IMG/VR virus record: IMGVR_UViG_3300034061_000237
Location: 1-24,895 of that record
Length of the DNA: 24,895 nucleotides
DNA from: a virus
Strand: one strand, 5' to 3'
In this document: positions 20,726-23,549 of the stretch, piece after piece
Position numbering within the stretch: the first letter of the stretch is position 1
Layout of the letters: each line of letters opens with the position of its first letter
Made by a program: the position numbers and the translations under genes
The notes under the pieces: model-generated
What the model saw: the letters and a program-made list of their open reading frames with translations, nothing else
Told to the model about the DNA's origin: nothing
Database searches by the model: none

Positions 20726-21445
20726 TTAGCGGGTTTGCGCACCGATGATGTAGTCTAACGTGGTTGCGCGGGTGCCGCTGGCTGAACCAGACAAGCTCAT
20801 CGCTGCCAACGCTAAGTTTTCGTCATCAGGGATGTTGGTGGTGTGCTGCGCAACTTTTCGCCCGTTAACAAAGAACGTCACGCTACCAGTGCTAGTGACG
20901 TTAAACGACAGCACAGCGTAGGTGTCATCGGCCAAGTCAACGCCAGAGTCGGTGGAAGTCTCAGTGCCGTTCTTCTCAGTCTTACACAGGATTGACGCAT
21001 CGCCGTCGTCCACTTGGAACACGATGCGGTCAGTTGCAGTCAACATTGCTTCGGGGTTGGTTGCAAAGTTCAGCGTCAAACCAGCGCAAATGTCAGTCTG
21101 GTCAGCGTCGTTGCACTTCAGGCGTGTTGAAAAGTAGATGTTTTTGTCAGTCGCCACGGCAAAGATCTCGTTGCCCTGAATAGAAGCGCCATCGTTGTCA
21201 GTGGTTGCGGTAGATGTCAGCGCCACTTCACCGCCGACCGTGTCAGCCACGATAGCAACGGCAGCGCCAGTGTCTTTGACCACAGTCCAGCTGTTTGTTG
21301 TGTCTATCGCAACACCGACAAAGTCATCAAGCAGTGAAAATACTGACAGATCGATGCCAATGGGCATGTCAGTCATACCAGCGAAGAGCGCGCTTGTGTT
21401 TGCACCAGAATAGAGTAACGGACCGGAGTAATGAGTAGCCGACAT
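20726..21445 (-). CDS. Lectin-like (jelly-roll) virion protein
   Basis: This is a 239-residue protein. The N-terminal part (MSATHYSGPLLYSGANTSAL) is typical of virion proteins encoded behind the capsid gene in environmental phages. From about residue 38 (LLDDFVGVAIDTTNSWTVVK) the sequence is beta-rich with NIYFSTRLKCNDADQTDICA, IVFQVDDGDASILCKTE, YAVLSFNVTSTGSVTFFVNG and a final ATTLDYIIGAQTR. This looks like a concanavalin-type jelly roll. GAGGA lies 8 bases before the ATG. The homing endonuclease gene separates it from the capsid gene. A head-decoration or carbohydrate-binding surface role is inferred from fold pattern and position only. Confidence 0.68.
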   Translation of the reverse strand: MSATHYSGPLLYSGANTSALFAGMTDMPIGIDLSVFSLLDDFVGVAIDTTNSWTVVKDTGAAVAIVADTVGGEVALTSTATTDNDGASIQGNEIFAVATDKNIYFSTRLKCNDADQTDICAGLTLNFATNPEAMLTATDRIVFQVDDGDASILCKTEKNGTETSTDSGVDLADDTYAVLSFNVTSTGSVTFFVNGRKVAQHTTNIPDDENLALAAMSLSGSASGTRATTLDYIIGAQTR

Positions 21446-21540
21446 AATGAAATCCTCACATGCGAGTGTTGCGCTTCAGTCTGCATGTAGTCCGCCCGGT
21501 CGGTCTGCAGCGCGTAAAATGTTCCGGGGTTACGTACTTT

Positions 21541-22503
21541 TTACGCTTTTTGGGGGGAGGTGTCAATGGTCTCGCCCTTTAATGCCCGCCTTGCGTTTTC
21601 TGTTTTCCAATCCTCCCTCATGCATGCTGTGCAACTGCCTTTGACTTTCCGGGGGGATATATGTCCTCGGACACAAGGCATCCCCGTAAAATACTCTTTG
21701 CTTCCCGCAGCTTTAGCAGCCTGTCGGGTACGGGGGTAGCTTGCGTACTCCTCAGATATGCTAGGACCTTGGTTAGGCGCCGCGTCCGCATAAGACAACA
21801 CCCATCCTGCCAACACACCACATTTTACCGGCTTTCCTGACCCGCAGGCTCTGATGGTGGTAGCGATAGAAACCCCCAGCTCGTCCCGCATAACGGATAA
21901 CCCTGCGAAAATACGTGTCTGCCCATCGGGGAGCCTTGCGAAAACAGCCCTGCGAAGCTTGTTTTTAGTCTCTTCGGTATGCGTTTTGCCCAACCAGTTT
22001 TGGTTGCCCGCATTGGCAATAGAAAGACTTCGGCGGTGTTCTTCTGAACGGATATGCCCCTTGGGGCCACGGTTACCCTCGCTAGCCTTCGACATTTTTT
22101 CACGGGTTTCCTTCGACGGAATAAACTTTCCGCCACGCCCTTCAGCTAACGCTGCTTGAACTTTGGCGGATAAAAGGGCTTTAGTCTCTTCCGTGTGCGG
22201 GATTCCTGTGCGCATCCCTATAGCATCGGTGTTTATGTTGTAGCACTCGGGCTTGCTAACATGCTCGTGAAGGTACTTATTTTCATGTTCAAAAGTAGAT
22301 ATACCTTCGGGAACTTCTTCAAGCACCTCAAAAACAAACGCATCCTCTCCGTACTTGTTCCAAGATGCCTGAAGGTGCGGGTTCTTATGTACACCCCTTT
22401 TTAAATCGTTCCTGTGCTGCCACTCGCGGCGAGCAAAAGACTCCGCACTGCCTATGTAGTACTTGTTGTTAATCATGTTTGTAATGCGGTAGATAACAGC
22501 CAT
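21541..22503 (-). CDS. Freestanding GIY-YIG homing endonuclease, I-TevI-like
   Basis: This 320-residue protein is predicted to cut DNA at a specific site and so spread its own gene. Residues 3-5 (VIY) and 15-18 (YYIG) form the GIY-YIG pair. Arg25 or Arg26 and Glu74 (FEHENKYL) match the catalytic Arg and Glu of phage T4 I-TevI, whose 20-50 region is closely similar by eye (NKYGEDAF, LEEVPE). Residues about 100-185 hold NUMOD3-like DNA-binding motifs (HTEETKALLSAKV, KETREKMSKAS, SEEHRRSLSIA, HTEETKNKLRRA). A helix-turn-helix-like unit (IFAGLSVMRDELGVSIATT) and a zinc-finger-like C-terminus (CVRGH … CTACMRED) follow. AAGGAG lies 8 bases before the ATG, and a promoter lies just upstream. Both flanking genes look intact, so it is intergenic rather than intron-borne. 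Confidence 0.88.
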   Translation of the reverse strand: MAVIYRITNMINNKYYIGSAESFARREWQHRNDLKRGVHKNPHLQASWNKYGEDAFVFEVLEEVPEGISTFEHENKYLHEHVSKPECYNINTDAIGMRTGIPHTEETKALLSAKVQAALAEGRGGKFIPSKETREKMSKASEGNRGPKGHIRSEEHRRSLSIANAGNQNWLGKTHTEETKNKLRRAVFARLPDGQTRIFAGLSVMRDELGVSIATTIRACGSGKPVKCGVLAGWVLSYADAAPNQGPSISEEYASYPRTRQAAKAAGSKEYFTGMPCVRGHISPRKVKGSCTACMREDWKTENARRALKGETIDTSPQKA

Positions 22504-22531
22504 TTTAGCTTCTCCTTACTGGGTATTTTAG

Positions 22532-22560
22532 ATAGTAATCCCGCTAAAGAGTGTTGTCAA
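22532..22560 (-). promoter_or_regulatory. Near-consensus sigma70-type promoter
   Basis: On the minus strand TTGACA (22560-22555) and TACTAT (22537-22532) are separated by exactly 17 bases. It lies between the terminator of the capsid gene and the endonuclease ribosome binding site (22517-22512), with predicted transcription start near 22525. It could drive the endonuclease and, if no terminator follows, all downstream tail and lysis genes. Confidence 0.78.
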
Positions 22561-22589
22561 GCCTTGTATCGCTATTTTACCATTACAAT

Positions 22590-22613
22590 AAAAAAGGGCC
22601 CCGAAGGGCCCTT
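22590..22613 (-). terminator. Intrinsic terminator behind the capsid gene
   Basis: On the minus strand AAGGGCCC, a TTCG tetraloop and GGGCCCTT form a perfect 8-bp stem, with six T in a row spanning the stem end and the bases after it, then ATTG. It sits 27 bases downstream of the major capsid stop codon. GC-rich stem, UUCG loop and T tract make it a textbook Rho-independent terminator. Confidence 0.93.
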
Positions 22614-22640: not shown

Positions 22641-23549
22641 TTACGGAGTACCGGGTGAGCCGAATATTCCGCGAGGATCAGAAAATCCAAACGAGTATCT
22701 CTCCCGCGCTTTGTACCTAACGTTACCAGTATCGAAGTCACCTTCAAAGCCGGTTTTGATCGCAGCACGGTTGAACATCTTCATGCCGTTAGGCGCATCG
22801 GTCTTGATGAAGAACGCATCTGGATCAACGAGGAAGTGGTTAACAGTGTAGCCCTGCGGAACCATGCCCATGTTGCGGATCGCGTTAATGTCGTTATCCG
22901 CTGTGCCTACGCGCAGGGTTGACTTCATGATACGGTCAGCAGTGAACTGCAGCTCTTTCGGGATGATCAGCTTCAGACCCTGAATCGCGATCTTCAAACC
23001 ACGCTCATCAGTGAAGGCAGCGATGTCGATCAGCGCCTGCTCCAGTGAGGTTTCAGAGAGGTCTGCAGATACAGACAGCTCGTTACGCAGATTTGGACCA
23101 CTCAGCGTGGGGTGATCTGTTGAGCAAAGCGCAACGCCGTCGCCACCGATTGAGGTGGTGAATGCACCGTTCAGGATGGCCGCAGCTTTGATCTGCTTGG
23201 TCTGCGCCATTGAGCGAGCCAGTGCCTTGGTGTAACGCACTGACAGACGGTCGTAGAGGTTGTCTTCTACGGCTTCTTCGGTCAGGCTGAACGCCAGAGC
23301 AATAGTTTCATGGGTGTAGCGAGCGGTGTAGACTTCTTGCGCGTTGTCGTACTCGACACCTGCGCCTTCAGACTTCACGGGTGCTTCGCCAAAACCGGAG
23401 AGCATAACTTCTTCTTCAAATGCGCGGTCAGAAGATTCAATTGAATAAATCTCCGTGTGCTCATTTTCGTAGTTGTCGTACTCCATACCGAACAGAGCGT
23501 TAAGACCCGGCTCAAGTTCGGCGACTAATTGGGAACGAGAAATAGCCAT
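22641..23549 (-). CDS. Major capsid protein (HK97-fold, Mu gpT-like family)
   Basis: This 302-residue protein is the main shell protein. It opens MAISRSQLVAELEPGLNALF. TARYTHETIALAFSLTEEAV and LSVRYTKALARSMAQTKQIK follow, forming the long helix region. GDGVALCSTDHPTLSGPNLRN is a motif I associate with Mu-like gpT and related environmental phage capsids. Later segments are DERGLKIAIQGLKLIIPKEL, STLRVGTADNDINAIRN and a conserved end VRYKARERYSFGFSDPRGIF. No protease domain is fused. TAGGAG lies 8 bases before the ATG. Position behind the decoration-like gene, size and motifs all agree. High late expression followed by a dedicated terminator fits a capsid gene. Confidence 0.88.
   Translation of the reverse strand: MAISRSQLVAELEPGLNALFGMEYDNYENEHTEIYSIESSDRAFEEEVMLSGFGEAPVKSEGAGVEYDNAQEVYTARYTHETIALAFSLTEEAVEDNLYDRLSVRYTKALARSMAQTKQIKAAAILNGAFTTSIGGDGVALCSTDHPTLSGPNLRNELSVSADLSETSLEQALIDIAAFTDERGLKIAIQGLKLIIPKELQFTADRIMKSTLRVGTADNDINAIRNMGMVPQGYTVNHFLVDPDAFFIKTDAPNGMKMFNRAAIKTGFEGDFDTGNVRYKARERYSFGFSDPRGIFGSPGTP

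Follow-up and report, generated by a model that had tools for sequence, protein, structure and literature searches.

In the phage sequence analyzed here (the window, 24,895 nt, positions 1 to 24,895 of the IMG/VR record IMGVR_UViG_3300034061_000237), a homing endonuclease gene was found to end inside the predicted promoter of the genes that follow it. We suggest, with a probability of roughly four in five, that a cassette composed of its own promoter, a ribosome binding site and a GIY-YIG gene fills the gap between a resident terminator and a resident promoter, and that the downstream genes start at the latter, which is embedded in the end of the endonuclease gene. Comparison with relatives shows that an empty allele exists, that the front promoter is specific to the cassette, that the resident promoter is retained and that the same layout is found in two endonuclease families. 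The original prediction had read the order as capsid stop, UUCG-loop terminator, promoter with a 17-nt spacer, strong ribosome binding site and I-TevI-like GIY-YIG endonuclease, and this was confirmed, with all elements on the minus strand. The second promoter, at the end of the endonuclease gene, had been missed.

The front of the cassette and the chimeric endonuclease

The major capsid protein gene (22641..23549, minus strand) is of the HTVC023P / DSL-LC04 type, as judged from Pfam Phage_capsid_4, the PHROG major head protein and the capsid annotation of relatives, and its ORF (23549..22641) matches PF25209 with an E-value of 8e-13. The last 100 bp of the gene (22740..22641) share 83-89% identity with several relatives and the remainder mostly more than 90%; this 3' end is possibly a co-conversion tract. 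The gene is followed by an intrinsic terminator with a UUCG loop (22594..22613, minus strand), reading AAGGGCCC-TTCG-GGGCCCTT and then TTTTATT. It is resident by comparison with relatives, being present with or without the endonuclease, and a terminator was found 3' of the capsid gene in 231 of the 256 fetched sites.

The cassette promoter, TTGACA-17-TACTAT, lies 5' of the endonuclease gene (22532..22560, minus strand), matches the consensus at 10 of 12 positions with a 17-nt spacer, and is better than expected from shuffles of the 91 nt 5' of the gene (p = 0.012), while promoters of this quality are not rare across the region (5 found, 7.1 expected). The sequence AAGGAG is placed 8 nt upstream of the endonuclease ATG. 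All orthologous cassettes examined (L084, L086, L161 and L164) carry an identical front promoter and all empty alleles examined lack it, including a near-identical phage without the gene (L002). The suggestion that the endonuclease brought its promoter along is thus well founded.

The endonuclease gene (21541..22503, minus strand, 320 aa) was characterized by its ORF, Pfam, structure matches, family comparison and a predicted model. The GIY-YIG catalytic domain occupies residues 2-82 (22258..22500, minus strand; Pfam E-value 9e-7), and residues 4-92 match the structures 1ln0/1mk0 of the I-TevI catalytic domain (E 8e-14). In the alignment, Y5, Y16, R26, E74 and N89 are invariant, so the protein carries the catalytic Tyr, Arg, Glu and Asn of GIY-YIG enzymes, and this domain is the confident part of the predicted model (pLDDT about 90), in which the C-terminal tail is disordered. 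A DNA-binding region of the NUMOD type is predicted from NUMOD3 matches (Pfam 6e-15), the best of two motifs spanning residues 149-183 (21955..22059, minus strand). A zinc-finger-like domain follows at residues 249-307 (21583..21759, minus strand), detected with phrog_1081 and by family comparison. By its domains, the protein appears to be a freestanding, I-TevI-like GIY-YIG homing endonuclease, and domains and layout together bear out the view that such an enzyme sits at a transcription boundary.

It is also a chimera of the two endonuclease families found at this site, since residues 1-245 resemble the site's GIY-YIG family at 34-44% and residues 249-307 resemble the N-terminal zinc-like domain of its HNH-like family at 48-56%. 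The orthologues in L084, L086 and L161 differ from it in the middle module (residues about 100-155), the window version of which is also found in L088.

A predicted resident promoter in the end of the gene

The putative resident promoter of the downstream operon (21538..21566, minus strand) was recognized by prediction and from the alleles of relatives. It has a -35 hexamer TTGACA (21566..21561), a 17-nt spacer and a -10 hexamer TAAAAA (21543..21538), overlaps the end of the endonuclease gene, and reaches p = 0.007 against shuffles. The sequence ATTGACACCTCCCCCCAAAAAGCGTAA encodes the final eight residues, IDTSPQKA, and the stop, in the frame ATT GAC ACC TCC CCC CAA AAA GCG TAA. The predicted -35 and spacer are therefore coding sequence, the stop TAA (21543..21541) is the first half of the -10, and codons 313-320 (21544..21567, minus strand), disordered in the model, are written in what the alleles of relatives indicate to be resident promoter DNA.

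Relatives were gathered via the capsid and lectin-like proteins. The most informative empty allele belongs to the near-identical phage L002, which is 96.3% identical to the window in the 2,217 bases that end with the capsid stop; similarity returns at position 21570 (94.5% identity from there on), and 61 nt lie between these flanks versus 1,070 nt in the window. Its promoter, ATTGACACCTCCCCCCAAAAAGCGTAAAAAG, is letter-identical to the end of the window gene, and L091 carries the same letters, also with no endonuclease. In L002 and many other empty alleles the capsid stop is followed by terminator, promoter, conserved leader and next gene, and the distance from the -10 to the end of the leader is nearly fixed (mostly 83-91 nt). 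The gene is thus polymorphic in its presence at a fixed site, L002 and L091 being empty, L084 and L161 occupied and L083 a remnant. In the last of these no gene is left, only a 38-nt scrap, of which 34 nt (89%, hand count) match the L090-type gene at its 3' end, and then the promoter, which suggests that the endonuclease was lost and the promoter kept. One metagenomic contig (IMGVR_UViG_3300045999_003786) has an occupied allele at one end and a gene-less allele at the other, and represents either two strains of one sample or an assembly joint.

These alleles change the original picture in two respects. Invasion of an existing promoter region and arrival with a promoter had been offered as alternatives; both seem to have occurred, the gene lying between resident terminator and resident promoter and adding an extra promoter of its own, so that only the either/or framing falls. 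As for what relatives without the endonuclease keep, the terminator stayed and the upstream front promoter is absent, but these relatives have their own promoter after the terminator, so that gene-less relatives lacking both signals are not what we found.

In the reading we favor, the right edge of the cassette would be the -35 hexamer, so that the endonuclease frame would enter the promoter and take its last eight codons and its stop from there. Capsid operon transcripts would end at the terminator, and both predicted promoters would be active: the endonuclease would be transcribed from its own front promoter, and the downstream genes would restart at the embedded one, with some read-through in addition. 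Such an element would do almost no harm when it arrives and would be difficult to remove cleanly, since deletion of its end would remove the operon promoter; this would in turn lead to replacement of one endonuclease by another at the same seam. The embedded promoter would also explain retention of the endonuclease, as proposed for T4 (PMC2988022).

Alternatively, the embedded promoter could be part of the mobile cassette, with an outward-facing promoter in every endonuclease tail that travels with the gene. This would suit the group B phages, where L141 has TTGACA-17-TAAAAA with an HNH gene and the empty alleles use a different promoter, embedded in the terminator. However, group A empty alleles have the same promoter type without any endonuclease, in L002 and L091 with identical letters, and a nearly identical promoter is found with unrelated endonucleases, as a resident promoter would be. 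Moreover, searches for relatives of the L090 GIY-YIG and L141 HNH-like genes led to genes 3' of the same capsid gene; they revealed neither a homologue carrying tail and promoter at an unrelated locus nor any case of a gene moving independently together with the promoter. We consider this alternative unlikely.

Some alleles are built in other ways. Directly 3' of the capsid stop, the empty alleles of L094, L103, L192, L199, L049, L136 and L147 have the -35 (TTGTAG, TTGTGC or TTGTTG) inside the loop of the terminator hairpin and the T-run of the terminator within the 17-nt spacer, and terminator and promoter are thus fused. A fusion of this kind also closes the HNH-like gene of L028 and L039: the gene ends at TTGTAG, where TAG is both the stop and the final three bases of the -35, and a 17-nt spacer leads on to TACGAT. 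In the HNH-type genes of L346, L353, L364 and L370 the frame crosses an entire TTGACA-17-TATACA promoter and stops further on. In L077 the stop of the GIY-YIG gene (1984-2700) overlaps the next start codon (CTAATGG), and promoter and leader were lost. No clear embedded promoter was found in L007, L058, L120 and L125.

The same layout in two endonuclease families

Downstream of the capsid gene, 126 distinct regions contain five GIY-YIG types, several HNH-like types and one EDxHD/Vsr-like gene (L073, weak matches only), and the site is an insertion hotspot. In L099, a Cupin_8/JmjC-like gene lies between the capsid and lectin-like genes, with a native-type promoter copy on either side.

The stop falls inside the best predicted downstream promoter in 44 of 49 distinct GIY-YIG genes and 36 of 45 distinct HNH-type genes 3' of this capsid gene (80 of 94 together), counts that are not phylogenetically independent, as the 49 GIY-YIG proteins fall into 15 clusters at the 70% identity level and into 6 at 50%. 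Promoters were scored with an approximate E. coli sigma-70 matrix that was entered by hand and may not be that of the hosts. When a score of at least 8 is required, a promoter straddles the stop in 36 of 49 GIY-YIG genes versus 3 of 167 capsid stops used as control. The codon choice of the shared tail [VIL]D is narrow: the first residue is written NTT in 33 of 34 cases, where 8.2 would be expected from the same genes, and Asp is written GAC in all 24. Among the 33 genes with a stop adjoining the -10, 32 use TGA, capsid stops being mostly TAA, and this TGA would serve as the TGn of an extended -10. Tail lengths differ among genes, and some stop at the TGA inside TTGACA. Because of kinship, naive p-values on the tail and stop counts are overstated, but two families and several stop positions agree. 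We conclude that the stop-in-promoter layout is probably common to two endonuclease families across many related water-borne phages, and that the constraint appears to act on the promoter letters.

The seam can be followed in one pair of alleles, the GIY-YIG gene of L243 and the HNH gene of L335, which are identical at 45 of 46 bases counted from the -35, versus 33% in the preceding 30 bases. This pattern suggests replacement of one endonuclease by another, with the promoter as the seam, and the window and L088 show it too, with a shared promoter and unlike upstream DNA.

The bias in codons and stops also bears on the idea that control of the downstream operon has passed to the front promoter, leaving the overlap of gene end and promoter-like sequence as a relic. 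The front promoter does outscore the embedded one, 11.8 versus 10.0 on the approximate sigma-70 matrix, and read-through from it is expected, as the stretch from the endonuclease to the next gene shows no apparent terminator. A relic, however, would not account for codon and TGA biases that preserve the embedded promoter in two families, for its nearly fixed distance to the leader, or for its retention in L083 after gene loss, and we regard takeover as quite improbable. Capture of the operon by the endonuclease with its own promoter was likewise rejected as the main reading, the resident promoter having been kept. The earlier suggestion that the cassette promoter might drive all downstream genes is not needed, because an intact resident promoter stands behind the endonuclease, overlapping its stop, though read-through could still contribute. 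It is very improbable that the endonucleases require the shared tail [VIL]D[TP] as a protein motif and that the promoter resemblance is secondary: the tail is conserved as protein in both GIY-YIG and HNH genes, but its synonymous codons and the stop type beside the -10 are constrained, it is predicted to be disordered, and tails of varied length, some ending at the TGA in TTGACA, keep the promoter and not the peptide.

Leader RNA, downstream gene and known systems

A leader of about 80 nt separates the embedded promoter from the next gene. Folding and covariation predict that it forms five helices and two pseudoknots of the H type (21446..21529, minus strand), and its 3' end is the ribosome binding site of that gene. 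Among 29 distinct group A sequences this structure forms in 95.0% of cells versus 81.9 in shuffles, and 14 of its 27 pairs are changed on both sides. The covariation score is 0.347 versus 0.106 in shuffles and at most 0.096 in every slid control, a control that favors the structure since it was drawn from the same sequences. Single-sequence folds were inconsistent, as expected of a pseudoknotted structure. The last helix adjoins the ribosome binding site, which makes a role in translation control plausible. An HDV-like ribozyme topology, considered by eye, was dropped because the pairing order differs. The covarying pseudoknotted leader is also found in L003, L025, L094, L110, L120, L124 and others, and in group B relatives (L013, L150, DSL-LC04) the same topology is seemingly present, by eye, with other letters.

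The window leader has no Rfam match, and the Mu-gpT-DE covariance model (RF03012) does not match the window at E <= 1, nor in a targeted search at E <= 10. In this, and in its two pseudoknots, the window-type leader differs from Mu-gpT-DE, a model that is matched by the leader of some relatives at the corresponding place (L128: E 7e-6 and 40.4 bits, short of the gathering score of 49). By eye, the L128-type leader and Mu-gpT-DE share a UGACAG..CUGAC core. The group C leaders, with their weak match, are the only ones that resemble Mu-gpT-DE.

The first downstream gene (20726..21445, minus strand) is lectin-like (PF22237, Laminin_G_3) rather than one of the tail genes originally expected there. 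Since the gene annotated as 'cement protein' in DSL-LC04 occupies the same position, we consider it a candidate capsid-decoration gene.

In a literature search for an endonuclease hotspot beside the capsid gene, only the T4 review PMC2988022 was relevant. In T4, the coding regions of the endonucleases segG, segA, segE, mobB and mobC contain the promoter of the gene that follows, an arrangement proposed to favor retention (PMC2988022). The window gene is likewise a freestanding endonuclease in an intergenic gap with a predicted downstream promoter in its coding sequence; unlike the segG type, the promoter at this site straddles the stop, the stop often contributes bases to the -10 or extended -10, and the solution is common to two families at one site in many phages. 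Of other T4 genes, segD separates capsid gene 23 from gene 24, and segF is a GIY-YIG/HNH hybrid (PMC2988022). The window endonuclease combines both traits, but it is in sense with its own promoter, whereas segD is antisense with no identified promoter. Compared with I-TevI of the T4 td intron, which is autorepressed (PMC2988022), the GIY-YIG catalytic domain, the NUMOD3-type DNA-binding part, the zinc-finger-like module and the own promoter are shared, but the window gene is freestanding, with no intron evidence, and its zinc-like module is C-terminal and related to the site's HNH family. A promoter embedded in a freestanding endonuclease gene is therefore already known from T4; the recurrence at one site and the stop doubling as promoter are what stand out here.

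More broadly, we tentatively propose, at somewhat short of even odds, that aquatic podoviruses throughout a large clade have a dual-coded seam where the capsid and cement genes meet: unrelated endonucleases would swap there at the -35, the operon promoter, often with the TGn of an extended -10 as the stop, would code their C-termini, and loss of the endonuclease would be penalized, since the promoter would go with it. It may be, too, that the endonucleases recognize the embedded promoter and so regulate the operon. The site exposes a structured leader RNA outside Rfam and endonuclease families that appear to recombine with each other. It would offer a repeated, concrete case of a selfish endonuclease that is hard to delete, with stop and C-terminus made from an operon promoter, and its empty, occupied, remnant and swapped alleles make the retention idea raised for T4 testable by comparison.
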